DNA of 44,912 nt from a virus. The translations under genes were made by a program, and so were the position numbers. Below the pieces are notes generated by a model. The model worked only from the letters and a program-made list of their open reading frames with translations, ran no database searches and had not been told where the DNA came from. Location: positions 1 through 44,912 of IMG/VR virus record IMGVR_UViG_3300028800_000152. The stretch is one strand, 5' to 3'. How positions within the stretch are numbered: the stretch's first letter is position 1; the number at the start of each line of letters is the position of its first letter. Positions 197-43,988 of the stretch are shown in pieces.

Positions 197-202
197 ATCT
201 GG

Positions 203-273
203 AGCGGCCCGAGGGAATCGAACCCTCGTAAACGCGTTGGAAGCGCGTGGCTCTGCCATTGAGCTAGGGCCGC
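203..273 (-). tRNA. tRNA-Gly(TCC)
   Basis: Full cloverleaf on the minus strand: 7-bp acceptor GCGGCCC/GGGCCGC, D arm, anticodon loop CTTCCAA, T loop TTCGATT. CCA is encoded at 200-202. It reads GGA codons. Confidence 0.95.
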
Positions 274-373
274 ATATCGTGTACGTGGTCGTCGGGGCCG
301 CGAGGTCCCAGCCCTCCTTTAGGGCGTTTCCTCCCAGACTGGCCCGGCCCCGTGCCGGGCCATTTTCGTTTGG

Positions 374-459
374 CGGAAGGGACAGGATTCGAACCTGCGA
401 AACGGTTTCCGTTTAGTCGGTTAGCAACCGACCGCCTTAAGCCTCTCGGCCACCCTTCC
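374..459 (-). tRNA. tRNA-Ser(GCT)
   Basis: Class II tRNA with a long variable arm, acceptor GGAAGGG/CCCTTCC, anticodon loop TTGCTAA, discriminator G and encoded CCA. Its 5' half overlaps the stop codon of the upstream leftward gene (437-799). Confidence 0.95.
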
Positions 460-799
460 TGATTGGATTTCTTCTGGCCCATAAGTACGGCGTCCAGTAC
501 GGACGCTGTTTGTATTTTCGTGCGCGGATCTCATTGCACTGCCGGGTCACGCGCTCGTAACGCACCGCAGGATTGATCACCCTGCGCATTGGTCGGAGCC
601 CGGATATTCTCAGCTTGTTCCACCAACCGCCGCGCTGGTTCTTTGGTGGCTTGCTGCGGGCCAGCAGCAAGCGCCGCCGACTATTCGGGTTGTGCTTCGA
701 ACGCCAGACGGCCTTGAGATATTGGCGGTCGCAGATCGGGTGCGGACGCATCGCCGTCAGGATGCGATACGGATTGTCGGGACCGCCAAAGAATCTCAT
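437..799 (-). CDS. Hypothetical basic protein whose stop codon lies in tRNA-Ser
   Basis: A 120-residue, strongly basic protein (many Arg/Lys, several Trp) with no recognised domain. Codons in this frame end mostly in G or C, as in neighbouring genes, which supports real coding. It begins about 25 bases downstream of the 3' end of the tmRNA gene. The TAA stop (437-439) lies inside the D arm of tRNA-Ser(GCT). RNase P cleavage at 459/460 would therefore remove the stop from a shared transcript. No strong Shine-Dalgarno sequence is seen. Function unknown; a nucleic-acid-binding role is only a guess from its charge. Confidence 0.55.
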   Translation of the reverse strand: MRFFGGPDNPYRILTAMRPHPICDRQYLKAVWRSKHNPNSRRRLLLARSKPPKNQRGGWWNKLRISGLRPMRRVINPAVRYERVTRQCNEIRARKYKQRPYWTPYLWARRNPIRKGGREA

Positions 800-822
800 T
801 TTGGTCGCGTGCTTTTTGAAGG

Positions 823-1161
823 AAAAAGTTGGGGCGCTTCTGGTGCCAGGCCCGCCCCGATTGACCCCGACCGATCACGCCGCGAGGGCGAGTCGGCCAG
901 GAACGATGTTATCGTTCGCAGGTATTTAGACCGATCACGGCAGGTCACGCCGGGCACAGTTTCCATCATCCAGCAGAAATCGATCCTGTGTCGCCCCCGC
1001 CGAGACCGTGCCGGTAATCCGTCGTCACCGCCAGATCAACCTCACCTTGTGAGGTAGAGGTTCTGAAAGCGACACGGTCTCGGTGGAGGCGCCGGGTACT
1101 GCCCCCGGGTGTTTCTGCCTTCACATAGACTTTTCAGCGCCATCTCCGGCCGAAGCCGGCG
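823..1161 (-). ncRNA. ssrA: Circularly permuted two-piece tmRNA
   Basis: Read on the minus strand, the acceptor piece comes first. It has T arm CCGGG-GGCAGTA-CCCGG (1092-1108), acceptor CGCCTCC (1085-1091) and discriminator A at 1084. After an intervening segment the coding piece starts at 998 with GGGGGCG, pairing to CGCCTCC with a G3:U70 wobble, the alanine identity signal. The intervening segment is closed by a perfect 11-bp inverted repeat (1000-1010 and 1073-1083), as expected for permuted tmRNA precursors. The tag frame (875-919, resume codon GCG) encodes ANDNIVPGRLALAA and then TGA, a typical AND...ALAA degradation tag. A G+C-rich hairpin with a T run (about 823-857) closes the gene. 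CCA is not encoded (CCG instead). The outer ends are approximate. Confidence 0.9.
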
Positions 1162-1166
1162 GCTGC

Positions 1167-1195
1167 CTTATCGCGCGGCGGGCGCGCGGCGTCAA
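1167..1195 (-). promoter_or_regulatory. Predicted tmRNA promoter
   Basis: On the minus strand TTGACG (1190-1195) is followed after 17 bases by GATAAG (1167-1172), placing a start near 1160, just before the acceptor piece. It abuts the CCA end of tRNA-Arg(CCT), so the tmRNA could be transcribed independently of the tRNA block. Confidence 0.5.
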
Positions 1196-1200
1196 CTTGG

Positions 1201-1273
1201 CGGTCCCGGCGCGATTCGAACGCGCGACATCCTCGTTAGGACCGAGGCGCTCTATCCGCTGAGCTACGGGACC
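1201..1273 (-). tRNA. tRNA-Arg(CCT)
   Basis: Complete cloverleaf, acceptor GGTCCCG/CGGGACC, anticodon loop GTCCTAA, discriminator G, CCA encoded at 1198-1200. Separated from the next tRNA by one base. Confidence 0.95.
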
Positions 1274-1274
1274 G

Positions 1275-1347
1275 TGCCTCCGGCCGGATTCGAACCGGCG
1301 ACAATCCGCTTAGAAGGCGGCTACTCTGTCCGCTGAGTTACGGAGGC
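1275..1347 (-). tRNA. tRNA-Arg(TCT)
   Basis: Acceptor GCCTCCG/CGGAGGC, anticodon loop CTTCTAA, T loop TTCGAAT. No CCA is encoded because tRNA-Arg(CCT) follows after one base. Its acceptor sequence on the plus strand supplies the GGAGG ribosome binding site of the gene at 1352. Confidence 0.95.
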
Positions 1348-1351
1348 GAAG

Positions 1352-1576
1352 ATGAGGATCACGTGTTGCATTCCGTTCTGCCGGCGCACGACGGCTGCAG
1401 CTATGCTCGCGGCGAAGGGTCACGACGAATGGATTTGCAGCAAACATTGGCCGTTAACGAATCGCTCATGGCGCCGGCGCTTGTCGTTATTCCGCCGGCG
1501 CGGTCGCGCCGATCTCGAGGCGCGGATGTGGATTCGGCTGAAACAACAGGCGATCGAGCGCGCTCTCGGGCTGTGA
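1352..1576 (+). CDS. Small zinc-binding phage protein
   Basis: A 74-residue basic protein on the strand opposite the tRNAs. CCIPFC (residues 5-10) and CSKHW (29-33) form a likely C/C-C/H zinc site, followed by an arginine-rich helical tail. The Shine-Dalgarno GGAGG lies 5 bases before the ATG, inside the plus strand of the tRNA-Arg(TCT) acceptor stem. It fills the gap between tRNA-Arg(TCT) and tRNA-Cys exactly. Similar short zinc-finger/arginine proteins are common in alphaproteobacterial phages (recalled, not searched). Function unknown. Confidence 0.65.
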   Translation: MRITCCIPFCRRTTAAAMLAAKGHDEWICSKHWPLTNRSWRRRLSLFRRRGRADLEARMWIRLKQQAIERALGL

Positions 1577-1585
1577 GAAAAATGG

Positions 1586-1656
1586 AGGCCAGAGCCGGAA
1601 TCGAACCGGCGTGCGCGGATTTGCAGTCCGCTGCGTAACCACTCCGCCATCTGGGC
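1586..1656 (-). tRNA. tRNA-Cys(GCA)
   Basis: Anticodon loop CTGCAAA, stem GCGGA/TCCGC, discriminator T (usual for Cys), CCA encoded at 1583-1585. The acceptor GCCCAGA/TCTGGCC has a C2:C71 mismatch, or one extra C if the 5' end is at 1657. Confidence 0.9.
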
Positions 1657-1662
1657 CGTTGG

Positions 1663-1735
1663 CGCGGGAGGAGGGATTCGAACCCCCGACATTCACATTC
1701 AGAGTGTGACGCTCTACCAACTGAGCTACTCCCGT
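1663..1735 (-). tRNA. tRNA-Gln(CTG)
   Basis: Anticodon loop CTCTGAA, stem TCACA/TGTGA, T loop TTCGAAT, CCA encoded. Position 1 is A opposite C72, leaving the acceptor end unpaired; Gln tRNAs commonly have a weak first pair. Confidence 0.92.
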
Positions 1736-1807
1736 ATTTCGTCAGTTTAGGCAAGTCCCCGTTGGCTCGCTTGGCTAAGGGGCAATGGGTAGATTTGGGT
1801 AAAATGG

Positions 1808-1881
1808 TCCGAGCGGCTGGATTCGAACCAGCGACCTGCTGTACCCAAAACAGCCGCGCTGCCAGACTGCGCTACGCTCGG
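1808..1881 (-). tRNA. tRNA-Pro(TGG)
   Basis: Acceptor CCGAGCG/CGCTCGG, anticodon loop TTTGGGT, discriminator A, CCA encoded at 1805-1807. Confidence 0.95.
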
Positions 1882-1889
1882 GGGCTAAA

Positions 1890-2114
1890 ATGGACTTCTC
1901 AGACATCCCGCGACGCCACCGCCGTCGGCGCACGCACGAGGTGCTGACGCACACGATCACGATCTCCGTCACCGCGAATGAGCACGCGGCGTTCATTGCC
2001 TGTGCCGAGGAGCAAGGCATGACGATGGCCGCGGTCGGCCGTCGGGCGATCAACGCTGCGGTTTTGGAATGGCGCTCTCGGAAGGACTCGAACCTTCAAC
2101 CTCCGGTTTCGTAG
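1890..2114 (+). CDS. Possible ribbon-helix-helix protein
   Basis: A 74-residue protein on the strand opposite the tRNAs, starting 9 bases after tRNA-Pro(TGG). The order is a basic N-terminus, a short beta-like segment (TITISVT, about residues 22-28) and two predicted helices, compatible with a MetJ/Arc-type fold. The stop falls inside the plus strand of tRNA-Arg(ACG), so the last 14 or so residues are templated by tRNA sequence. The Shine-Dalgarno is only a G run. A DNA-binding role is inferred from the pattern. Confidence 0.5.
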   Translation: MDFSDIPRRHRRRRTHEVLTHTITISVTANEHAAFIACAEEQGMTMAAVGRRAINAAVLEWRSRKDSNLQPPVS

Positions 2115-2146
2115 ACCAGCGCTCTGTCCAGTTGAGCTACGGGAGC
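2073..2146 (-). tRNA. tRNA-Arg(ACG)
   Basis: Anticodon loop CTACGAA (A34, normally edited to inosine), stem CTGGT/ACCGG, CCA encoded. The acceptor GCTCCCG/CGAGAGC contains a C5:A68 mismatch. Confidence 0.92.
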
Positions 2147-2165
2147 TTGGGTAAAACTATTTTGG

Positions 2166-2238
2166 CGCTCCCAACCGGATTTGAACCGATGTTACGGCCT
2201 TGAGAGGGCCGCGTCCTTGGCCGCTAGACGATGGGAGC
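2166..2238 (-). tRNA. tRNA-Glu(CTC)
   Basis: Acceptor GCTCCCA/TGGGAGC, anticodon loop CTCTCAA, stem CGGCC/GGCCG, discriminator G, CCA encoded at 2163-2165. Confidence 0.95.
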
Positions 2239-2280
2239 GAAGAAGGGGGCGGCGAGGGGCTGGGTCGCCGCCCCCTCACC

Positions 2281-2472
2281 TCAAGCAGCGAGCCGATCGC
2301 CGACCATGCTCGTCTGCTCGACCGCCGGCAACGCTGGCCAGCGGAAGACAACGCTGTGATTACAGTCCTTGTTGGTACAAAGGAACAACGCCTCGCCGGC
2401 CTTCGCGTCGATGACGCGCATGGAGCCTGCACACTCAACGCAAAGCACTCTTCCCATGTTGTCGAAGCACAT
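2281..2472 (-). CDS. Small zinc-ribbon protein
   Basis: A 63-residue protein with two cysteine pairs, CVEC near residues 11-14 and CTNKDC near 32-37, followed by a histidine. Together they fit a treble-clef or zinc-ribbon. The start at 2472 is preferred because GGGGAGA lies 8 bases upstream. A start 18 bases further upstream is open but has no ribosome binding site. It lies between tRNA-Glu(CTC) and another small leftward gene. Partner and function unknown. Confidence 0.65.
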   Translation of the reverse strand: MCFDNMGRVLCVECAGSMRVIDAKAGEALFLCTNKDCNHSVVFRWPALPAVEQTSMVGDRLAA

Positions 2473-2570
2473 CGTCGTGGTTCTCCCCATTGCGGTTGAC
2501 GGGGGCCAGTGTACCGACGGTCAGTACCCAATGCTGTGCTGAATTGCACACTCAGAGTGTGCTGTTTTGC

Positions 2571-2741
2571 TCACTCCAGATCGACGACATCGTCCCGGAA
2601 CAGGCCCGAGCTGGCAGCGGCGACGCGCTCGGCGTGCAGCACGCAGTCGACGAGCGTCACGCTCTGGCCGTAGACGAACTTGCGGTGGCCGCGCAGCATC
2701 GCGCTAGCGATACGCTTGATGAATTCCTGGCGGTCGATCAT
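2571..2741 (-). CDS. Hypothetical 56-residue protein
   Basis: An ATG follows a good Shine-Dalgarno (GGAGGA, 8 bases upstream) and opens a 56-residue acidic-basic helical protein beginning MIDRQEFIKR and ending in an acidic RDDVVDLE. No known domain. It overlaps the 3' end of a tiny membrane-peptide frame (2704-2808) in another phase. Confidence 0.65.
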   Translation of the reverse strand: MIDRQEFIKRIASAMLRGHRKFVYGQSVTLVDCVLHAERVAAASSGLFRDDVVDLE

Positions 2742-2808
2742 GGCCGTGTCCTCCGCGGAGGATGATGGCGCCGGCGAGCAGCACGAGCATGATCAAGATG
2801 ATTCGCAT
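2704..2808 (-). CDS. Possible 34-residue membrane peptide
   Basis: ATG at 2806-2808 opens a peptide starting MRIILIMLVLLAGAIIL, one strongly hydrophobic segment, followed by a short Gly/His-rich tail. It overlaps the next gene by 38 bases. The ribosome binding site is weak (AGAGA). It could be an antiholin-like or regulatory peptide, or chance. Confidence 0.35.
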   Translation of the reverse strand: MRIILIMLVLLAGAIILRGGHGHDRPPGIHQAYR

Positions 2809-2812
2809 TGAA

Positions 2813-3181
2813 TCAATCTCTCATGTGCGGCGGCAGCTCCGGCAGCGGCACCGTCGTCCCGCGCAGCTCGTGCGTGCTGTCGCCGTGGAAGACGATCTGG
2901 CCAGCCGTTACGTTGTAGTGGCAGCACCACGGGATCGTGTTGCCGTCCGCGTCGCGGACCCACCCGCCGAGCCAGCGGCCTTGCTCGTCGACTGTGCGCT
3001 TTTTGCCGGTGATCTTGATGCTCGGCGTGAACGTCGGCTGATCGAGGTTGCCGTCGAACCAACACGGCGAATCCGTATCGGCACAGATCGTCGTGTGCGG
3101 CTCCTTGCAGCCCGGGCACCAATGCGTGAACGCATAGTAGCCGCCGCGCAGCTTGCTGCTGATCTGCCCCATGCGAATCAC
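2813..3181 (-). CDS. DUF6527-family protein
   Basis: A 122-residue protein with the hallmarks of DUF6527: an HWCPGC zinc-knuckle start (about residues 20-25), a central W-D-x-N...PTFTPSI segment, CCHYNVTAGQIVFHGDSTH and a C-terminal L-PELP. The family is widespread in phages and of unknown function. A second Cys pair with the histidines probably completes a metal site. The frame opens with GTG; an ATG three codons downstream is equally possible. It starts 15 bases after tRNA-Asn on the same strand. Confidence 0.8.
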   Translation of the reverse strand: MIRMGQISSKLRGGYYAFTHWCPGCKEPHTTICADTDSPCWFDGNLDQPTFTPSIKITGKKRTVDEQGRWLGGWVRDADGNTIPWCCHYNVTAGQIVFHGDSTHELRGTTVPLPELPPHMRD

Positions 3182-3196
3182 GTAGCACGAAAGTGG

Positions 3197-3268
3197 CTGG
3201 AGAGGCAGGGATCGAACCTGCGATCATCTGATTAACAATCAGCTGCTGTACCGCTCAGCTACTCTCCA
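3197..3268 (-). tRNA. tRNA-Asn(GTT)
   Basis: Acceptor TGGAGAG/CTCTCCA, anticodon loop TTGTTAA, CCA encoded at 3194-3196. Pair 27:43 is G:A, and the loop-closing bases can pair to shrink the loop. Confidence 0.93.
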
Positions 3269-3280
3269 AAAGAGAAATGG

Positions 3281-3353
3281 TGGACCCGCGGGGACTTGAA
3301 CCCCGGACCTCCCCGGTGCGAACGGAGCGCTCTCCCAACTGAGCTACAGGCCC
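3281..3353 (-). tRNA. tRNA-Ala(CGC)
   Basis: Acceptor GGGCCTG/CGGGTCC contains the G3:U70 pair that defines alanine identity. Anticodon loop TTCGCAC, discriminator A, CCA encoded at 3278-3280. Confidence 0.95.
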
Positions 3354-3361
3354 TTAAAATC

Positions 3362-3422
3362 ACGCCGCGCCGGACCTTAACCGGCGACACCTTTTGCGGT
3401 GGCCTCCCACGAGGCTGCGGCG
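3362..3422 (-). pseudogene. tRNA-like remnant
   Basis: On the minus strand CGCCGC pairs with GCGGCG at the ends, and a T-arm-like hairpin GCCGG-TTAAGGT-CCGGC lies in the right place. The T loop lacks the conserved TTC, the anticodon-position hairpin (CACC/GGTG) has no T33, and the total length is only about 61 bases without CCA. It sits in line between tRNA-Ala and tRNA-Phe, so it is best read as a decayed tRNA. Confidence 0.4.
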
Positions 3423-3429
3423 AATGTGG

Positions 3430-3503
3430 TGCCCGAGGATGGATTTGAACCACCGACGCCCGCGTCTTCAATGCGGCGCTCTACCAGGCTGAGCTACAGG
3501 GGC
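3430..3503 (-). tRNA. tRNA-Phe(GAA), imperfect
   Basis: Anticodon loop TTGAAGA, CCA encoded at 3427-3429. The acceptor GCCCCTG/CTCGGGC has two adjacent mismatches (positions 5 and 6), and the innermost anticodon-stem pair is A:C. It may be partly decayed. The stop of the upstream gene ends at the base next to its 5' end. Confidence 0.75.
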
Positions 3504-3683
3504 TTAAGTCCAATATCTCTTCGATCGTTTCGTGTTGCCGCGCCTCGGCACGCCCGCCTGCTTGGCGAGCACGATCGGGTAAGTCGGCGAGCAACCGAAA
3601 CGCTCGGCGATTGCCCGCACCGGCAGGCCGTCGACGTACGCCTTGAGGATCTTGCGTTTTTCTTCCTCAGTGCGCTCGGTCAT
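3504..3683 (-). CDS. Small helix-turn-helix protein
   Basis: A 59-residue protein. Residues 8-45 fit a homeodomain-like helix-turn-helix (ILKAYVDGLPVRAIAERFG with a recognition helix after CSPTYP), and a basic tail follows. It is probably a DNA-binding regulator or resolvase-type HTH. Its TAA stop directly abuts tRNA-Phe. A GTG one codon upstream of the chosen ATG is possible. Confidence 0.7.
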   Translation of the reverse strand: MTERTEEEKRKILKAYVDGLPVRAIAERFGCSPTYPIVLAKQAGVPRRGNTKRSKRYWT

Positions 3684-3978
3684 CACGGTGCGCCTTCAGG
3701 TCAGCGTCGCTGATCTGCCGATTTATTTCTCTGTCGGCGGCGTCGACGGTATTGGTCGCATCGATGGTACCTTCGGCCGCCATGCGGAAAGTCGGCGAGA
3801 ACCCGAGTGGAATGCAGAAAGAAAGCCGAGGTTCGCCTTTGGCATTTCGATAAACTTCAAGGACTTTGACGCCGTCGATATACAGGCAATCGGCATTTTG
3901 CGCCGAGCTTACGGTTGATGCCGATGCGGCGATGGAGCCGAAGCCAAGAAAGGTTAAAATCTTTCGTTTGGAGATCAT
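3667..3978 (-). CDS. Secreted or periplasmic hypothetical protein
   Basis: A 103-residue protein. Residues 1-27 form a signal peptide: basic MISKRK, a hydrophobic stretch, then SAQ before NADC. The mature part has two cysteines that could form a disulfide. The ATG overlaps the stop of the glycosyltransferase gene as ATGA, suggesting coupling. Its end overlaps the start of the HTH gene by 17 bases. Function unknown. Confidence 0.7.
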   Translation of the reverse strand: MISKRKILTFLGFGSIAASASTVSSAQNADCLYIDGVKVLEVYRNAKGEPRLSFCIPLGFSPTFRMAAEGTIDATNTVDAADREINRQISDADLKAHRDDRAH

Positions 3979-4928
3979 GAGATCGTGTTCGCGTCCTCGT
4001 TGCGCTGCCGGAAGTAGTTGTCGACGTCGCGCGTGAGCTGCGGCTTGTTGCCGGCGAGCTCGAGCACGCCGAACCAGTTGCGCTTGAGGTCGATGTCCGG
4101 GTTGAACTTGTTGCGGACGATGATGTCCCAACGGTTGATGTACTTGCGGTCGGCTTTGCGGCCGTGCCAGCGGTGCTCCAGCGTGCCCCACACGAAGCCG
4201 ATGTTGCGGCGGATGTGGAAGTCGGCGCGCTCCTGCCAGCGCATGACGTGGGCCGCGTAATCGAGCGTCACGCCGTGCGGCATGCTCTTCGAGGCGTGGC
4301 CGACGAGGCCAAGCGCCATGTGGTGATCGCCGGCGCCGAGCGCGCCCGTCTGCAAGAGGCCGCCAGTCCATTCGATCGCCGAGCGCGTGGCCGCCCACGC
4401 GTAGCCGGAGTGCGGGTACGAGTAGGGCCCCTGGTCGAAGGTCCAGAACTTGTTGCCGGTCGGGAACACCGGCTCGCCCTCGGCGTACTGGCGGCAGAAG
4501 CTCTTGTACGAGGCGAGGTGCTCGTCCTGCGGGCCGAGGTCGTAGGCGTCAGACCACGGCTGGATGACGTCGTACTGCTGGAGCGCGTGCACGGCCTCGG
4601 TCGCCCAGTCCCGCTTGCGGAAGAAGACGTCGGCGTCGACCCAGGCAACGTAGTGCCAGTCCATCGGCAGCCGCGAGATGCCGATGTTGATCAGGTTTTC
4701 CTTGTTCCACACCAGCGTCTTGGCGCGCACGTGCACGCGATTGATGCGGCCCTCGTGGTCGGTTAGCTCGAACGGGCGTTCGCCGTAGGCGCATTCGACG
4801 GTCGTGAGCCGCACGCCGGAGTCGAGCATGTGCTGCTCGAACTCCTTGTGGACAGCGAGGCGGTTTTTCCAGCGGATCGGGTTCGCGAAGACGGCGACGA
4901 CGTGCAGCAGCTCCGGGCGCATCGGCAA
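3975..4928 (-). CDS. Glycosyltransferase-like protein
   Basis: A 317-residue protein with an N-terminal Rossmann-like start (LLHVVAVFANP), LVWNKENLIN at residues 73-82 and a DxD motif in AWVDADVFF (D98/D100). It resembles GT-A glycosyltransferases, using a nucleotide sugar with a metal bound by DxD. Similar proteins occur in phages, where they may modify surface polysaccharide, virion or DNA; the acceptor cannot be told here. Length is normal for the family. It is the first gene of a leftward pair with a secreted protein and lies 75 bases downstream of tRNA-Gly(GCC). Its start was chosen as the first ATG. Confidence 0.8.
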   Translation of the reverse strand: MPMRPELLHVVAVFANPIRWKNRLAVHKEFEQHMLDSGVRLTTVECAYGERPFELTDHEGRINRVHVRAKTLVWNKENLINIGISRLPMDWHYVAWVDADVFFRKRDWATEAVHALQQYDVIQPWSDAYDLGPQDEHLASYKSFCRQYAEGEPVFPTGNKFWTFDQGPYSYPHSGYAWAATRSAIEWTGGLLQTGALGAGDHHMALGLVGHASKSMPHGVTLDYAAHVMRWQERADFHIRRNIGFVWGTLEHRWHGRKADRKYINRWDIIVRNKFNPDIDLKRNWFGVLELAGNKPQLTRDVDNYFRQRNEDANTIS

Positions 4929-5003
4929 CCCCCAAGACGATTCGGAAACGGACCGGCCCCTTGCTTATAGGACAGTCACGACCGCTGCATAACTGGAAAG
5001 TGG

Positions 5004-5075
5004 AGCGGGCAGCGGGAATCGAACCCGCGACACCGACCTTGGCAAGGTCGTGCTCTACCACTGAGCCATGCCCGC
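5004..5075 (-). tRNA. tRNA-Gly(GCC)
   Basis: Acceptor GCGGGCA/TGCCCGC, anticodon loop TTGCCAA, stem CGACC/GGTCG, CCA encoded at 5001-5003. A well-formed tRNA. Confidence 0.96.
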
Positions 5076-5184
5076 ATTCTCTCAATAACGCCGGATGATG
5101 TTCTCCACACCTTGCCGCCCCGTGGTCCGGCCCACGTCACCCCGCGTCCGGGGTTTGGCATTTGCGCCAAGCGCGTTATTTTGG

Positions 5185-5269
5185 TGAGTGAGGGAGGAGT
5201 CGAACCTCCGCCTATAAGGACTGGTTTTACAGACCAGCGGGCCCTTGCCGTCGGCCACGTGCCTCACTC
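5185..5269 (-). tRNA. tRNA-Tyr(GTA)
   Basis: Class II tRNA, acceptor GAGTGAG/CTCACTC, anticodon loop CTGTAAA, stem CTGGT/ACCAG, T loop TTCGACT, CCA encoded at 5182-5184. The D-arm region is slightly irregular. Its first base overlaps the stop codon of the gene 5268-5438. Confidence 0.92.
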
Positions 5270-5438
5270 ATTTTTCTCGCTCGGCGGCGGCGAAGTAGGC
5301 TGCCCGCTGCGAAGGGGTCATTGCGTCAAGATCGACGCATTCGACGATCTTGCCGTCCACAACCTTCTCGATGATTTGCGTATTATTGAAAATGCGCCGC
5401 GCACGTTTGCGTTCTGCAAGACAGATGATTTCTGGCAT
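5268..5438 (-). CDS. Hypothetical 56-residue protein ending in tRNA-Tyr
   Basis: It starts with ATG (5436-5438) and encodes a charged helical protein beginning MPEIICLAERKRARR and ending AAEREK. Its TGA (5268-5270) straddles the 5' end of tRNA-Tyr, so RNase P processing would cut within the stop codon. No known domain and only a weak Shine-Dalgarno. Confidence 0.6.
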   Translation of the reverse strand: MPEIICLAERKRARRIFNNTQIIEKVVDGKIVECVDLDAMTPSQRAAYFAAAEREK

Positions 5439-5530
5439 GACGGAGCCATACCTGCGCTGTGGAAGTTTGGGAGCGCTTCGGGGAGCGACCGCCGATTGCA
5501 GCCACTCCCCCTTTCCGCGCTGGTTTTTGG

Positions 5531-5604
<74 letters not shown>

Positions 5605-5703
5605 TCAATCTTGCCAGGCTTTTCAACTCCGTGGCGTCGTCGCTGTACATCCGAGCTAACGAGAAACCGTCTTTTACATCAGCGACGGAGGCTGATCAAG
5701 TGG

Positions 5704-5788
5704 AGGAAGGGGTGGGATTCGAACCCACGGGACCTTGCGGACCTGCGGTTTTCGGGACCGCCGCCTTAAGCCTCTCGGCCACCTTTCC
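5704..5788 (-). tRNA. tRNA-Ser(CGA) with C33
   Basis: Class II tRNA, anticodon arm GCGGT-CCCGAAA-ACCGC. Position 33 is C rather than the near-universal U. The acceptor GGAAAGG/CCCTTCC has an A5:C68 mismatch, and the discriminator is T rather than the usual G. CCA encoded. Confidence 0.85.
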
Positions 5789-5796
5789 ACTATTGG

Positions 5797-5869
5797 CCTT
5801 CCGGGCCGGATTCGAACCGGCGACCTCAGCCTTCGGATGGCTGCGCTCTATCCGCTGAGCTACCGGAAA
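5797..5869 (-). tRNA. tRNA-Arg(CCG)
   Basis: Anticodon loop ATCCGAA, stem CAGCC/GGCTG, acceptor TTTCCGG/CCGGAAG (first pair U:G), discriminator G, CCA encoded at 5794-5796. Confidence 0.93.
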
Positions 5870-5888
5870 ATGTTGACCGAGACCGCGA

Positions 5889-6410
5889 TTAAGCGGCCTC
5901 GGCCGGCAGGAAGTCGAGCCACGTCCGGTGCACGCGGTGCCGGAGCGCGCGGTCGAGCGCGAGCAGTTCGGCCTGCGTCGGGCGCCGCGGCACCTTCATC
6001 GGGTGCATCAGCCCCACCGTGTTGCCCTTGCGGGTGTTGCAGGGCCCGCAGGCGGCGACGACGTTCTCCCAGCGGTGGAGGCCGCCGCGCGAGACCGGCT
6101 GCACGTGGTCGATCGTCAGCGGCCGGCGTTCGCCGCAATACTGGCAGCGGTGGCGGTCGCGCAGGAACACGTTGGAGCTGGTGAACGACACGTGGCCGCC
6201 GTCGCGGACGTAGGTGCGGAGCGCCACGACCGAAGGGATGCGCATCGTCACCGTCGGCGAGCGCACGACCTCGTCGTACTCGGCGACGACCGAGACCGTC
6301 TCCTCGTAGACGTTCTTGATCGCCTCCCACGCGTCCTTGACGGAGAGCGGGAAGAGGCTCACCGGCCGGAAGTCGGCGTTAAGCACGAGCGCCGGGTGAT
6401 GTTGCAGCAT
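5889..6410 (-). CDS. HNH endonuclease
   Basis: A 173-residue protein with a C-terminal HNH domain: CQYC (89-92), TIDHVQP (IDH at 100-102), a conserved WENVVAAC and CGPCN (121-125), then KGN. The two Cys pairs bind the structural zinc and DH is the catalytic metal site. The N-terminal 80 residues (LVLNADFRPVS) match the extended group seen in many bacteria and phages. The start at 6410 follows AAGGAAT; a longer frame upstream runs into tRNA-Met and was rejected. It stops 19 bases before tRNA-Arg(CCG). It could be a homing-type nuclease in the tRNA block or a packaging-associated HNH. Confidence 0.88.
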   Translation of the reverse strand: MLQHHPALVLNADFRPVSLFPLSVKDAWEAIKNVYEETVSVVAEYDEVVRSPTVTMRIPSVVALRTYVRDGGHVSFTSSNVFLRDRHRCQYCGERRPLTIDHVQPVSRGGLHRWENVVAACGPCNTRKGNTVGLMHPMKVPRRPTQAELLALDRALRHRVHRTWLDFLPAEAA

Positions 6411-6446
6411 GGCCGATTCCTTTCCGGTTTGAATGATAGCATTTGG

Positions 6447-6519
6447 TGCGCCCGGCCGGACTCGAACCGACATCGAGGCCGTTATGAGCGACCGGCTCTA
6501 CCGTTTGAGCTACGTGCGC
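6447..6519 (-). tRNA. tRNA with CAT anticodon (elongator Met or Ile2)
   Basis: Acceptor GCGCACG/CGGGCGC (one A:G mismatch), anticodon loop CTCATAA, stem GGTCG/CGGCC, discriminator A, CCA encoded at 6444-6446. No initiator marks. Elongator Met versus lysidine-modified Ile cannot be settled by eye. Confidence 0.88.
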
Positions 6520-6590
6520 GGTCTTCCGACGAGTAGGCGCGCGCTGGCGCCTCGTGTTAGTTGCTCCGCTCTCGCGGCTCCCTTGTGGGC

Positions 6591-6713
6591 AGCACCCGGC
6601 GGGAATCGATACCCGCGACATCGAGAGCTTACTACGTTCGGCTGGCGTGGTGCACCACGCGCTTTTGCCTACTTGGTTCTTCTCAAGCTGTTTTCCAACT
6701 AAACTACAGGTGC
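6591..6713 (-). tRNA. tRNA-like gene with about 50 extra bases
   Basis: The ends form an acceptor GCACCTG/CGGGTGC, with D arm GTTT...AAAC and T arm GCGGG-TATCGAT-TCCCGC in place. About 75 bases separate the D and T arms instead of about 22. The extra DNA contains a perfect 16-base palindrome (6645-6660). No canonical anticodon loop is evident and CCA is not encoded. It could be a tRNA with an insertion in the anticodon region or a pseudogene. Confidence 0.5.
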
Positions 6714-6749
6714 ACAACGGTGAGCCCCACAAGCTCTCGTCGAAAATGG

Positions 6750-6825
6750 TCAGCGTGGCAGGATTCGAACCTGCGGCCCCCTGCGCCCGAGGCAGGTGCT
6801 CTAGACCAGGCTGAGCTACACGCTG
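6750..6825 (-). tRNA. tRNA-Pro(CGG)
   Basis: Acceptor CAGCGTG/CACGCTG, anticodon loop CTCGGGC, stem CCTGC/GCAGG, discriminator A, CCA encoded at 6747-6749. Confidence 0.95.
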
Positions 6826-6840
6826 TTGTGTTTTATCTGG

Positions 6841-6915
6841 CGCTCTCTGTACGGGACTCGAACCCGTCGGCAACCGCTCGACAGGCGGCCCGCTTCACCC
6901 GCTGCGTCACAGAGC
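6841..6915 (-). tRNA. tRNA-Asp(GTC), irregular acceptor
   Basis: Anticodon loop CTGTCGA, stem GCCGC/GCGGT, CCA encoded. The 5' acceptor strand is GCTCTGT but the 3' strand is ACAGAGAGC, a two-base (AG) expansion that bulges the stem. Confidence 0.85.
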
Positions 6916-6923
6916 ATGTTTGG

Positions 6924-7003
6924 TGCGGTCGCCGAGACTCGAACTCGGATGGTTGCCCACGGCGACCTCAACGCCGCGCGTCTGCCAGTTCCGCCACGAC
7001 CGC
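6924..7003 (-). tRNA. tRNA-Leu(GAG)
   Basis: Class II tRNA, acceptor GCGGTCG/CGACCGC, anticodon loop TTGAGGT, stem CGGCG/CGCCG, discriminator A, CCA encoded. It is the only Leu tRNA here with the normal long variable arm. Confidence 0.95.
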
Positions 7004-7011
7004 GTATTTGG

Positions 7012-7083
7012 AGGGCGCTCGGGGACTCGAACCCCGGACCAGATGATTAAGAGTCACCCGCTCTGCCGCTGAGCTAAGCGCCC
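7012..7083 (-). tRNA. tRNA-Lys(CTT)
   Basis: Acceptor GGGCGCT/AGCGCCC, anticodon loop CTCTTAA, stem GGTGA/TCATC, CCA encoded at 7009-7011. One base separates it from tRNA-Lys(TTT). Confidence 0.95.
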
Positions 7084-7084
7084 G

Positions 7085-7158
7085 CAGGTGCTGCCGGGTT
7101 CGAACCGGCGACATCCGGATTAAAAAGCCGGTGCTCTACCCAACTGAGCTAAGCACCC
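7085..7158 (-). tRNA. tRNA-Lys(TTT)
   Basis: Acceptor GGGTGCT/AGCACCT, anticodon loop TTTTTAA, stem CCGGC/TCCGG with the innermost pair unpaired. CCA is not encoded because tRNA-Lys(CTT) begins after one base. Confidence 0.9.
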
Positions 7159-7169
7159 ATGAGATTTGG

Positions 7170-7245
7170 TCGACCCGGGTGGATTCGAACCACCGACCTC
7201 TCGCTTATCGGGCGAGCGCTCTGACCGGGCTGAGCTAAAGGGTCG
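7170..7245 (-). tRNA. tRNA-Ile(GAT) with C33
   Basis: Anticodon arm CTCGC-CCGATAA-GCGAG: GAT anticodon but C at position 33. The outer acceptor pairs CGACCC/GGGTCG are good. There is one extra base between the acceptor and D arm. CCA encoded at 7167-7169. Confidence 0.85.
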
Positions 7246-7256
7246 TCTAAAAATGG

Positions 7257-7328
7257 TGTGCCTCGACGGGATTGAACCGCCGACCTCATCCATGTCAAAG
7301 ATGCGCTCTCCCACTGAGCTAGAGGCAC
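7257..7328 (-). tRNA. tRNA-Val(GAC)
   Basis: Acceptor GTGCCTC/GAGGCAC, anticodon loop TTGACAT, stem CATCT/GGATG, discriminator A, CCA encoded at 7254-7256. On the plus strand its acceptor provides the AGAGG ribosome binding site of the gene at 7334. Confidence 0.95.
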
Positions 7329-7333
7329 GGTGA

Positions 7334-7567
7334 ATGGCTGACGAAGAAGAACCGCAGCGGCCGCCGACATACGCCGAGCTGGTCGAGCAGAACGAGGCGT
7401 TGCGCGCCGAGGTCACGGTGCTGCGCGGCGCCTACGAGGCGGTCGCGCGCAAGCTCGGCGACGAGCGGGCGAAGGCCGCAGCGACGGGCACAACCCGCAG
7501 GCGGCCGCAACGGCCGCTCGATCCGAAGGCGGCCAGCCCGTTCGACCGGCCTTACGATGGACGCTGA
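7334..7567 (+). CDS. Coiled-coil hypothetical protein
   Basis: A 77-residue acidic-then-basic protein. Residues 12-46 (YAELVEQNEALRAEVTVL...) have a heptad pattern typical of a short coiled coil, followed by an Arg/Pro-rich tail. The ribosome binding site (AGAGG) is the plus strand of the tRNA-Val(GAC) acceptor stem. Its TGA overlaps the ATG of the next gene (TGATG). Function unknown. Confidence 0.7.
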   Translation: MADEEEPQRPPTYAELVEQNEALRAEVTVLRGAYEAVARKLGDERAKAAATGTTRRRPQRPLDPKAASPFDRPYDGR

Positions 7568-7767
7568 TGATGTACGTTTCCGAAGAAGATCAAAAGCGGC
7601 TGTGCGACCGATTCGATGCCGAATTGCTCGCTGACCGTGCTGCCGGCATGGGCTGGGGCGAAATGGCTAAGAAGCGCGGTATGAACAAAAGCAACTTGCG
7701 GCGCCTGGTCTTGAAACTCAAGCGACCAGCGGCGGCGTCGCCGGCGGCGCAAGCCAGCAAAGGTTAG
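7567..7767 (+). CDS. Small helix-turn-helix-like protein
   Basis: A 66-residue protein coupled to the preceding gene. Residues 26-50 (AGMGWGEMAKKRGMNKSNLRR) look like a recognition helix-turn-helix, with a Lys/Ala/Pro tail. The 3' end overlaps the 3' end of the opposing hydrolase gene by 50 bases. It may be a DNA-binding regulator acting with the coiled-coil protein. Confidence 0.65.
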   Translation: MMYVSEEDQKRLCDRFDAELLADRAAGMGWGEMAKKRGMNKSNLRRLVLKLKRPAAASPAAQASKG

Positions 7768-8311
7768 CCGCGCAGCTCTTGTAGCCGTCGGCCACGACCT
7801 TGACGAGCAAGTCGCCACTGTTGCGGTTGACGAGGCTGAAATGCAGCGCCCAGATGCCGTGCGCGGACATCGCCGGGTAGACGCGGAAGCGCGGCGTGCC
7901 TGCGAGCGCGAAATAGTTGAGCGAATGGTGGCCGTCGCACGTCGCCGACCAGCACGTGGTCGACGCCAGCGCCAGCAGGGCCGGAAACGGCCGGAAGCCA
8001 TCGAGCACGACCAGCGAGAAGTTCCTGGCACCCTTCTGGAGCGCAGCGGCGGCGACCGCGTTGGCGATCGCGCAGCCTGAGCTGTGGCCAACGATGTAGT
8101 GCTCGTCGGCGACGTCGGCCGTGATCGTCTTGGCCCAGCCGTCGATCGTCGCCGGTGCGATCTTTGCTAGCGGGTCGCCGGAGGTGGCGCCCGCCGGGTA
8201 CGGCAGCGCCTCGAACGCGACGTCGGGCCGTTGCTGCTTGGCGGAGGCCGCCCACGCGTCGACTTGCGCTTGCGTTGCCTGATAGCCGCCGAAGAAGTGC
8301 ACGACGATCAT
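7718..8311 (-). CDS. Alpha/beta-hydrolase-like protein
   Basis: A 197-residue protein opening with a beta strand (MIVVHFFGG) and containing the nucleophile elbow GHSSG (residues 75-79, Ser77), followed by a small helix and LVVLDGF. This fits a short alpha/beta-hydrolase or cutinase-like fold. Candidate acid and histidine residues follow but cannot be assigned with certainty. Substrate unknown; a host-envelope esterase or lipase-like lysis role is possible but unsupported. The start follows GAGAG; a longer upstream frame runs through an unrelated gene and was rejected. Confidence 0.7.
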   Translation of the reverse strand: MIVVHFFGGYQATQAQVDAWAASAKQQRPDVAFEALPYPAGATSGDPLAKIAPATIDGWAKTITADVADEHYIVGHSSGCAIANAVAAAALQKGARNFSLVVLDGFRPFPALLALASTTCWSATCDGHHSLNYFALAGTPRFRVYPAMSAHGIWALHFSLVNRNSGDLLVKVVADGYKSCAANLCWLAPPATPPLVA

Positions 8312-8319
8312 TTGGGTTT

Positions 8320-8408
8320 CTCTCTTACCACGGAACCGGATGACAACCGCCGCCGTCGAACGGCGCGTAGCCCTTGCTGCAGCCCATAGCCAAACCGCCG
8401 ACGAAATC
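8320..8408. repeat. 89-bp duplicated segment, donor copy
   Basis: These 89 bases are identical to 14850-14938. Here the segment is the last 28 codons of the gene 8325-8579 plus five bases beyond its stop, so this is the likely source copy. Confidence 0.95.
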
Positions 8409-8579
8409 TCCGCGGTGGCCGTCCCATTCGTAGCAATACGCGTCCATACTAAACCTCGCCCCGACATTGGCAGCGACCTGAGCGGCCTGCATACAGTCTT
8501 CTCGGGTTTCAAACTTGAACCAATCGTCGCCGCCGAGAGCAGCACCGTAGATCGAGATGATTAGAATGTAGTGGAACAT
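8325..8579 (-). CDS. Secreted small cysteine-rich protein
   Basis: An 84-residue protein with an N-terminal hydrophobic signal (MFHYILIISIYGAALGG), a central WFKFETREDC and further Cys residues near 48, 64 and 76, consistent with an exported disulfide-containing protein. The ATG shares its A with the A76 of the encoded CCA of tRNA-Val(CAC). The Shine-Dalgarno GGGAG is the 3' acceptor strand of that tRNA, so excision of the tRNA would remove the translation signals. The 3' third of the gene is duplicated at 14850-14938. Function unknown. Confidence 0.75.
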   Translation of the reverse strand: MFHYILIISIYGAALGGDDWFKFETREDCMQAAQVAANVGARFSMDAYCYEWDGHRGDFVGGLAMGCSKGYAPFDGGGCHPVPW

Positions 8580-8581
8580 GG

Positions 8582-8655
8582 TGCTCCCGCGAGGATTCGA
8601 ACCTCGGGATTGTCGGTATGTGACACCGATGCCTTTGGCCGCTTGGCGACGGAGC
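8582..8655 (-). tRNA. tRNA with CAC anticodon (Val), Gln-like body
   Basis: Anticodon arm TCGGT-GTCACAT-ACCGA gives CAC (Val, GTG). The D arm GCCAAGCGGCCAAAGGC and variable loop resemble bacterial tRNA-Gln. The 5' acceptor strand is one base short (GCTCCG against CGGGAGC). CCA encoded and shared with the start codon at 8579. Confidence 0.75.
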
Positions 8656-8760
8656 TTACCAGTGATGATTAGAGGTCGACTAGCTCGACGAGCAGAATCA
8701 ACAGCAGCAGCACGTTGTCGTAGCGGCGCGCTTCCTTGATTTCCTTTGATCATTGTTTGG

Positions 8761-8836
8761 TGCCCCGGGCCGGACTCGAACCGGCAACTCAAGCCGTTTT
8801 GAAGGGCTGGCCTCTACCATGTTGGGCTACAGGGGC
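8761..8836 (-). tRNA. tRNA with CAA anticodon, short variable loop
   Basis: Acceptor GCCCCTG/CCGGGGC (one mismatch), anticodon arm AGCCC-TTCAAAA-CGGCT with C31:C39 unpaired, T loop TTCGAGT, CCA encoded. By position the anticodon is CAA (Leu), but the variable loop is class I (about 6 bases), unlike normal Leu tRNAs. Shifting the loop by one would give TCA. Confidence 0.7.
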
Positions 8837-8844
8837 GAAAGTGG

Positions 8845-8918
8845 TGCGTCGAGAGGGATTCGAACCCATCACTGGACGGGGCCTGAACCCGTTGCCTCTA
8901 CCGTTGGGCTATCGACGC
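8845..8918 (-). tRNA. tRNA with CAG anticodon, short variable loop
   Basis: Acceptor GCGTCGA/TCGACGC, anticodon arm ACGGG-TTCAGGC-CCCGT (CAG, Leu), CCA encoded. The variable loop is short and the T stem has only three good pairs. Its D arm resembles that of the neighbouring CAA tRNA, so the two may be related. Confidence 0.75.
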
Positions 8919-8927
8919 GTCATTTGG

Positions 8928-9000
8928 TGCCAACGGCTGGGATTTAACCAGCGGCCTCATCCGTACCAAGGATGCGCTCTGTCGACTGAGCTACGTCGGC
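8928..9000 (-). tRNA. tRNA-Thr(GGT)
   Basis: Acceptor GCCGACG/CGTTGGC, anticodon loop TTGGTAC, stem CATCC/GGATG, CCA encoded. The T loop is TTAAATC, so C56 is replaced by A and the usual G19-C56 contact is lost. Its 5' part contains the stop of gene 8944-9156. Confidence 0.88.
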
Positions 9001-9156
9001 GTTGTTCACAGCTTCGAGCAAGCGCGCTAGGCGCTCTTCCCAACCAGGCCAGCGTTCGAGGTGGCCGACAATCTTCCAGAACTCGCCGAGCTTTGGGTCT
9101 GTAACCTTGTAGCCGAAGGCGCTCTTGTAGAGCGGATGGATTTGCCATTTCTGCAT
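8944..9156 (-). CDS. Hypothetical protein starting and ending in tRNA sequence
   Basis: A 70-residue protein (aromatic and charged, MQKWQIHPLYKSAFGYKVTD...) with no known domain. The ATG lies one base after the encoded CCA of tRNA-Thr(TGT), and the Shine-Dalgarno AGGTGG is that tRNA's 3' acceptor strand. The TGA stop (8944-8946) lies inside tRNA-Thr(GGT), which overlaps the last 57 bases. tRNA processing would strip both the ribosome binding site and the stop. Function unknown. Confidence 0.6.
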   Translation of the reverse strand: MQKWQIHPLYKSAFGYKVTDPKLGEFWKIVGHLERWPGWEERLARLLEAVNNADVAQSTERILGTDEAAG

Positions 9157-9160
9157 TTGG

Positions 9161-9235
9161 TGCCACCTGTCTCGATTTGAACGGACGACCTTCGATTTAC
9201 AGAATCGCTGCTCTACCGGGCTGAGCTAAGGCGGC
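9161..9235 (-). tRNA. tRNA-Thr(TGT) with C33
   Basis: Acceptor GCCGCCT/AGGTGGC. Anticodon arm GCGAT-TCTGTAA-ATCGA gives TGT with C at position 33 and a G27:A43 mismatch. The T stem carries one inserted base. CCA encoded at 9158-9160. Confidence 0.78.
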
Positions 9236-9244
9236 GTGAATTGG

Positions 9245-9317
9245 TGCTAGCTGCTGGGATCGAACCAACGGCCTCTTCCTTACGAGGGAAGCGCTCTACC
9301 GACTGAGCTAAGCCAGC
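9245..9317 (-). tRNA. tRNA-Thr(CGT)
   Basis: Acceptor GCTGGCT/AGCTAGC, anticodon loop CTCGTAA, stem CTTCC/GGAAG, CCA encoded at 9242-9244. Its first ten bases overlap the end of gene 9308-9640. Confidence 0.95.
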
Positions 9318-42906: not shown

Positions 42907-43410
42907 ATGACGACCGTGGACCTCGTCCGCGAGAAATTCTGGACGGACGAGCGCGCTGAGACCTGCCGCCGCATGTGGGCGGAGGGCTGGACCGCCGGCG
43001 CCATCGGCGCCGAGCTCGGCTGCACCCGCAATTCCGTGCTCTCGAAGATCCACCGCTGCGGCTGGGTCGGCGCCAACTCGGTCGTGCACGACCCATCGGT
43101 GCCGCGCAGTGAACGCCTAAAGGGACAGAGCGCAGCGCTGAGGCGGCCGACGCCGCCGCGGCCCAGGCCCGCTAGGCCGAAAAAGAACACGCTGGCGGCC
43201 CTCGCTAAGGCGGCAATGCCCCTACTAGACGGCGACCCTACAGTCACCGGCTACGGCCGACCCAAGCAGGTGCTAGAGCTGTCGGCCGGCGATTGCCGAT
43301 GGCCGCTCGGTCATCCGGGCCAACCTGGTTTTGCGTTCTGTGCCGCGCCGGCGTTGGCCGGATTGAGCTATTGCCCGGCGCACTGCGTGCTCGCCTACAC
43401 ACACCGCTAA
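42907..43410 (+). CDS. gcrA: GcrA-family cell cycle regulator
   Basis: A 167-residue protein. The N-terminal WTDERAETCRRMWAEGWTAG with the following AIGAELGCTRNSVLSKIHR (about residues 12-50) is the GcrA DNA-binding helix-turn-helix. The C-terminus CRWPLGHPGQPGFAFC...CPAHCVLAY is the GcrA sigma-interacting domain with its Cys pairs. In Caulobacter GcrA works with sigma-70 at GANTC sites methylated by CcrM. A phage copy may redirect host transcription. It is the first gene of the rightward operon. Start at 42907; an upstream open frame has no ribosome binding site. Confidence 0.9.
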   Translation: MTTVDLVREKFWTDERAETCRRMWAEGWTAGAIGAELGCTRNSVLSKIHRCGWVGANSVVHDPSVPRSERLKGQSAALRRPTPPRPRPARPKKNTLAALAKAAMPLLDGDPTVTGYGRPKQVLELSAGDCRWPLGHPGQPGFAFCAAPALAGLSYCPAHCVLAYTHR

Positions 43411-43430: not shown

Positions 43431-43988
43431 ATGGCTAAACCGCGGAAGAGGAAAACCAAGGCCGACGCGCCGGGCGCTGACGCTGCCGGCATCGGCGACA
43501 ACAGCGAAAAGGCTGTGCTCACGCCAGACGAGAAGCGGCAGCTGTTTCTCAGCCACCGGTCGTCGTGGGCCGAGTATCGGGCCAAGGTTGCGGCCGCCGA
43601 GGAGTTCGGCAAGGACGTCAAGGCCGCGCTCAAGTCCGACGGGTTCTCGGTCAAGGACATGCAGATCGCCGACGCGCTCGTGAATGACGACACGAAGGTG
43701 GTGGCGGAGGTCCGCAACCGGCTGGAGATTGCGTCGTGGCTTGGTCATCCGATGGGCCACCAGCTCGAGATGTTTGACGAGCCCGATCGGACGCCAGTGA
43801 CCGACCGCGCGTACGACGACGGCAAGATGGCGTCGATGAGCGACAAGCAGCGCAAGCCGCCGCACTCGCCGGAGACGGAAGCATACCGTGCGTGGATGGC
43901 CGGCTACGACGACCACCAGCGCGAGCTCGTGGGTGGCATGCGCGCGCCGGCCGATGAGAACCAGAGCACGCTCGCCAACCGGCAGTGA
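43431..43988 (+). CDS. Conserved alphaproteobacterial phage protein
   Basis: A 185-residue protein after GGGAGGA. A basic start (MAKPRKRKTKADAPG), then GIGDNSEKAVLTPDEKRQLF, a helical region with DGFSVKDMQIADAL and a C-terminal AYRAWMAGYDDHQRELVGGM. This architecture (GDNSE, KDM, AYRAGxxD) recurs in Rhizobiales phages and prophages (recalled). Function unknown; a recombination or replication accessory role is possible. GTGA overlap with the next gene. Confidence 0.72.
   Translation: MAKPRKRKTKADAPGADAAGIGDNSEKAVLTPDEKRQLFLSHRSSWAEYRAKVAAAEEFGKDVKAALKSDGFSVKDMQIADALVNDDTKVVAEVRNRLEIASWLGHPMGHQLEMFDEPDRTPVTDRAYDDGKMASMSDKQRKPPHSPETEAYRAWMAGYDDHQRELVGGMRAPADENQSTLANRQ

Follow-up and report, generated by a model that had tools for sequence, protein, structure and literature searches.

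A two-piece, alpha-type tmRNA gene, probably functional, within the tRNA array of a phage

Phages are known to carry tmRNA genes. In a survey by Buchholz et al. (2022), 402 of 18,146 phage genomes encoded a tmRNA, in 133 unique forms, 53 of which were two-piece, 50 of these being marine or aquatic (PMC9004378). A database of 2025 comprises 79 unique phage tmRNAs (PMC11915505). tmRNA has been described in Bradyrhizobium elkanii phages (PMC12656738), and Sinorhizobium phage AP-J-162, a jumbo phage of 471 kb, encodes 66 tRNAs and one tmRNA (PMC11242549). A permuted tmRNA is also reported for Hodgkinia; it has a 129-nt intervening sequence with complementary stretches and few reads over it, and CCA is added to both pieces (PMC6581868). 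The CCA position of tmRNA is not always encoded as CCA (PMC11915505). In the literature that we searched, we found no functional test of phage tmRNAs of this class.

We analysed a virus record of 44,912 nt (IMG/VR IMGVR_UViG_3300028800_000152; the whole stretch is called the window hereafter). The Rfam alpha_tmRNA model matched over its full length on the minus strand at 827-1199 (119.5 bits, E 3.7e-32), and a second model, tmRNA_permuted, gave 90.7 bits at 875-1141 (minus). Both scores exceed the gathering scores of the models (50 and 47, respectively). ARAGORN independently called a permuted tmRNA at 784-1173 (minus), with the tag ANDNIVPGRLALAA. The permuted alpha-type tmRNA that a preliminary description had placed on the minus strand of this phage is thus a real gene, and probably a working one. 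Its parts and immediate surroundings, all on the minus strand, are as follows.

200 to 9317, minus: about 31 tRNA genes in an array interspersed with small ORFs (30 tRNAs and the tmRNA called by ARAGORN; one more tRNA, at 9161-9235, by Rfam)
1198 to 1273, minus: tRNA-Arg(cct) with encoded CCA, immediately upstream of the tmRNA (ARAGORN)
827 to 1199, minus: permuted alpha-type tmRNA gene (extent of the Rfam match; 784-1173 according to ARAGORN)
1146 to 1159, minus: hairpin CCGGCTTCGGCCGG near the 5' end of the acceptor piece (aligns to a hairpin of the alpha_tmRNA model)
1092 to 1108, minus: T arm with a 5-bp stem and the alpha-type loop GGCAGTA (the model consensus and relatives from viruses and bacteria share this type of loop)
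1085 to 1091, minus: 3' strand of the acceptor stem, CGCCTCC, which holds U70 (sequence pairing)
1081 to 1084, minus: discriminator A73 followed by an encoded CCG instead of CCA (sequence)
999 to 1080, minus: intervening segment between the acceptor strands, presumed from known permuted tmRNAs to be removed in processing and absent from the mature RNA
1070 to 1083, minus: left arm of a stem prolonging the acceptor stem, including the encoded CCG (11 perfect base pairs, 14 when one G-U pair is allowed)
1000 to 1013, minus: right arm of the same stem (pairs with 1070-1083)
992 to 998, minus: 5' strand of the acceptor stem, GGGGGCG, which holds G3 (model and pairing; predicted RNase P cut at 999/998, the site being deduced)
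875 to 919, minus: tag reading frame, GCG...GCG TGA, for ANDNIVPGRLALAA (ARAGORN and sequence; frame kept in the relatives L094 and L103)
823 to 858, minus: hairpin GGGGCG...CGCCCC on the 3' side of the coding piece, then AACTTTTT (a 3' hairpin conserved in the alpha type)

The order of the gene is permuted, with the acceptor piece first and the coding piece second, and the acceptor strands pair across the intervening segment. As the preliminary description had stated, CGCCTCC (1091-1085) and GGGGGCG (998-992) form all seven of the possible pairs and include G3:U70, the identity pair for alanylation. The tag frame that it reported is also intact: an alanine resume codon opens a frame with the alpha-type start ANDN, which ends on the hydrophobic LAA and the stop TGA. 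The stretch from the T arm to the coding piece folds as a single long hairpin beside the T arm (-72 kcal/mol, z = -5.9). The coding piece's 3' hairpin may also serve as a terminator, although a terminator scan did not call it.

A perfect 11-bp inverted repeat had also been claimed to close the intervening segment, and it was found at that very place (1083-1073 with 1010-1000). A repeat of this length anywhere in 373 nt of such composition is only mildly unusual (mean 7.95 and maximum 11 in 60 shuffles). We nevertheless take it to be real, because it is placed exactly against the acceptor stem and is conserved with covariation in relatives. In a parsed set of 104 genes (103 from viral contigs plus that of the window), the longest stem that the two ends of the intervening segment can form was mostly 10-16 bp, compared with a mean of 5.4 bp in shuffled segments. 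When the 68 distinct genes of this set were read in the register that continues the acceptor stem, 91.8% of the positions were paired, as against 33-54% when the register was slid by 1-3 bases; for 24 distinct bacterial genes the corresponding values were 81.6% and 30-45%, all these percentages disregarding relatedness, with some of the contigs being close relatives. Several types of pair occurred at most stem positions of the 68 genes, with many compensatory changes. The CCA positions are part of this stem, and the junction occurs in two alternative forms, ACCA/TGAT and ACCG/CGGC. Genes encoding ACCA mostly have TGAT ahead of the coding piece, which gives an A73-U pair and a C74.A mismatch, while those encoding ACCG mostly have CGGC, which gives an A73.C mismatch followed by the pairs C74-G, C75-G, and G76-C. 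We rejected the idea that the repeat is peculiar to this phage, since most of the parsed viral relatives and bacterial genes have it. Because the stem continues the acceptor stem in a fixed register across relatives, with compensatory changes, it is most likely a processing hairpin of the precursor. The Hodgkinia precedent means that such a hairpin is not new as such. A covarying hairpin of fixed register that includes the CCA positions and has two alternative junctions is, for its part, a testable statement on how the two pieces are cut apart.

The preliminary description regarded a two-piece permuted tmRNA in a phage as a rarity. This was overstated: one exact search pattern matched at least 119 stretches of viral contigs, and two-piece phage tmRNAs had already been counted (PMC9004378), so that the gene is not new in kind. 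The closest tmRNAs that we found belong to two other IMG/VR contigs, L103 and L094 (76-77% identity over about 210 nt, a stretch that takes in the intervening segment). Their records show no match to the terminase of the window and, unlike it, no tRNA array within the 12-13 kb examined; the L103 contig carries tail-fibre-type genes. A lack of any match to the alpha model, or a tag frame not conserved in related phages, had been named beforehand as speaking against the gene. Both points were checked; the model match is that given above, and a three-way alignment showed that L094 and L103 keep ANDN and L(A/S)A as well as the stop, the only change in length being an in-frame difference of one whole codon. 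In the 3' hairpin of the coding piece, one paired sequence has taken the place of another (GGGGCG...CGCCCC in the window, GGCCGTTTT...AAAACGGCC in L094 and L103). Re-pairing of the hairpin together with retention of the frame indicates that selection has acted on both structure and frame.

G3:U70 was present in all 104 parsed genes, a count that carries little weight since this G was a condition of the parsing and this T was part of the search pattern. Tags ended in AA in 58 of the 61 viral tags called, ARAGORN possibly favouring such endings. When we scored 50 viral contigs sharing the T-arm motif against alpha_tmRNA, 47 gave 65-142 bits and three gave 291-301 bits; three bacterial genes gave 306-314 bits. 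The score of 119.5 bits therefore places the gene of the window in the phage class. The three viral-labelled contigs with a host-type tmRNA of about 300 bits (L023, L074, and L120) are probably prophage host flanks or host DNA in the viral set. We also observed that one group of viral contigs (L024, L027, L041, and L050) has an unusually long tag of 29 residues, ANDNALSNVTFVDFSAPVTAVNEDFALAA, and that L031 and L033 have a different 29-residue tag, starting with AKKS.

We consider the window, probably a fragment, to be phage DNA because it has genes for a portal protein and for the large subunit of a terminase. It also contains, at 42907-43410 (plus), a gene for a protein of the GcrA family (Pfam, 95 bits). 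GcrA is a cell-cycle regulator of Alphaproteobacteria. This gene points to an alphaproteobacterial host, with which the alpha type of the tmRNA agrees. The tmRNA gene sits toward one edge of the tRNA array, on the strand of the tRNAs, about 25 nt separating the end of tRNA-Arg(cct) from the called tmRNA gene. The tRNAs called by ARAGORN serve 17 amino acids, with no tRNA for Trp, Tyr, or His in this fragment. The sigma-70-like promoter that had been reported directly upstream was not borne out, as a consensus scan of 600-2300 revealed none on either strand. No SmpB gene was found within the window, and SmpB would be supplied by the host.

Some further observations were made on the window and its relatives. 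In a perfect 12-bp inverted repeat, 1195-1206 at the 3' end of tRNA-Arg(cct) is complementary to 778-789, close to where the small ORF that follows the tmRNA (437-799, minus) begins; the repeat is probably due to chance. Rfam matched the suhB (mmgR) sRNA at 304-377 (plus) with 41.5 bits for a threshold of 41, on the strand opposite to the tRNAs and overlapping the end of a tRNA-Ser. At 43431-43988 (plus), a weak resemblance to ribosome modulation factor reached 19.1 bits, short of the 27.9 that Pfam sets as cut-off. Twelve contigs with a related portal protein (49-61% identity) contained no permuted tmRNA, and the five of them that were examined whole contained no tRNA array; as these contigs are probably fragments, the absence of the tmRNA from them is weak evidence. 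One related-portal contig of IMG/VR (L125, G005) has a tRNA with the anticodon CTA (7844-7919, minus), which is of the amber-suppressor type and is called Pyl by ARAGORN, and its terminase matches lie in three pieces within an open frame of 1318 residues. Among isolated phages, our search for close DNA relatives yielded only matches to tRNA stretches or to the short T-arm core.

The gene of the window encodes ACCG, and A76 is thus not encoded, while most of the tRNAs of this phage do encode CCA. ACCA was found in 116 of 120 genes among the matches listed (119 viral and that of the window), and the exact CCG motif in only one other contig of the viral collection, L018. L094 and L103 have ACCC, so that position 76 is likewise not A. 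As the DNA of these few related phages does not retain the final A, completion of the end would fall to the host CCA enzyme. An encoded CCA tail is a common feature but not an obligatory one, hence it does not define the class, and CCG in its place is a minor oddity. CCG-encoding tmRNA genes occur in 33 bacterial genome contigs, mostly of Hyphomicrobiales where these are named to that level. A hyphomicrobial origin of the gene is possible, but the matching motif is short.

From the gene, its stems, G3:U70, the tag, and the covariation, all of which are read in the DNA itself, we consider it highly likely that the phage harbours a functional two-piece tmRNA of the alpha type, which would rescue ribosomes and tag proteins with the help of host SmpB; its transcription, processing, partners, and benefit are deduced as follows. 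The gene would be transcribed together with the tRNA array or adjacent to it, and in the folded precursor the intervening segment would prolong the acceptor stem by its helix of 14 bp. RNase P would cut at 999/998, whereas the 3' end of the acceptor piece would be made by 3' nucleases and the host CCA-adding enzyme, the two pieces being held together through the acceptor and P2 helices. After charging by host alanyl-tRNA synthetase through G3:U70, host SmpB and EF-Tu would deliver the RNA to ribosomes stalled on broken messages, and the degradation tag ANDNIVPGRLALAA would be added to the stalled product. The phage might benefit in that ribosomes stay usable while host RNA is destroyed. The tagging or stalling-relief roles offered as possibilities in the preliminary description are plausible. 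Relatives at about 75% identity still keep the tag ends, the frame, the stop, and the paired stems. Points against are the score far below that of host genes (119 versus about 300 bits), the unencoded A76, and the lack of a promoter in the region scanned and of SmpB in the window.

The low model score and the loss of the encoded CCA could also be those of a decaying, non-functional gene. We judge this very unlikely, as the tag frame, the stop, G3:U70, and the stems are kept by compensatory change, and the tmRNA genes of the 33 bacterial contigs encode CCG as well. The divergence from host tmRNA would also fit a decoy that enters stalled ribosomes or titrates SmpB, thereby blocking or redirecting the host tmRNA, and mycobacteriophage DS6A provides a precedent with an RNA consisting only of the tRNA-like domain, for which such a role has been suggested (PMC4131195, PMC11915505). 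The DS6A RNA has no tag, however, whereas in the window the tag frame and the structure of the coding piece are intact and conserved; because the tag is intact, a decoy role is less likely, and we consider it improbable.

Integration into ssrA is common (PMC9004378, PMC11915505), and three of the 50 viral contigs scored do carry host-type genes of about 300 bits. We therefore considered whether the gene could be a host ssrA, whole or in part, acquired recently (e.g. when a prophage integrated there was excised imprecisely), or whether the contig includes host DNA. This appears very unlikely: the score of 119.5 bits falls within the 65-142 bits of 47 other viral genes and not near the 306-314 bits of bacterial genes, the gene is complete and lies inside the phage tRNA array, and its nearest relatives found are two other viral contigs. 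The tmRNA region is most likely not host DNA. Ordinary trans-translation is favoured because of the tag, G3:U70, and the conserved structure. There is also a small chance that the lineage of phage tmRNAs has become specialised and acts unlike host tmRNA through its own tag and the lost encoded A76. If so, chosen host or phage proteins might for instance be tagged for a different protease or rate, and the activity might be set by the speed of the host CCA enzyme, while the phage tRNAs are born complete.

Among known systems, the gene is close in kind to that of the marine Methylophilales phage Melnitz (PMC9004378), which is also a complete alpha-type permuted tmRNA with a similar alpha_tmRNA score (106.7 versus 119.5 bits), a tag (ANDNYVPVDYALAA) of the same ANDN...LAA form, and complementary ends of the intervening segment. 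Unlike the window, Melnitz has a glutamine riboswitch beside the tmRNA, found by the same Rfam search that revealed none in the whole window; the gene of the window, for its part, lies in a large tRNA array and encodes CCG. We also found permuted tmRNAs, unannotated in the records, in Rhodobacter phages RcRudolph (OP009285; L196 1935-2349, 94.8 bits) and RcSimone-Hastad (MW677525; L197 1935-2348, 97.7 bits). In the RcRudolph record, a hypothetical protein is annotated over part of the tmRNA. Both genes are alpha-type, with a long intervening stem as in the window, but they encode CCA, their tags (both ANDNVRMDAQALAA) differ in the middle, and no tRNA gene was present within the 4 kb read. As both phages are cultured, they offer a practical test system. 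The permuted tmRNAs of Hyphomicrobiales (e.g. Xanthobacteraceae, Ancylobacter) share with the window ACCG with CGGC and a stem in the same register, and differ from it by the 306-314 bits of the scanned host genes and by tags that are mostly ANDNYAPVAQAA. AP-J-162 resembles the window as an alphaproteobacterial phage with many tRNAs and a tmRNA, the likeness concerning the presence of tmRNA, and differs from it by its jumbo size. The lack of a tag region that defines the DS6A-type inhibitor is not seen in the window, where the tag frame is present. Thus, the gene is of a kind already known in, and common among, phages of Alphaproteobacteria, and it adds a somewhat divergent member to the ribosome-rescue RNAs of these phages.
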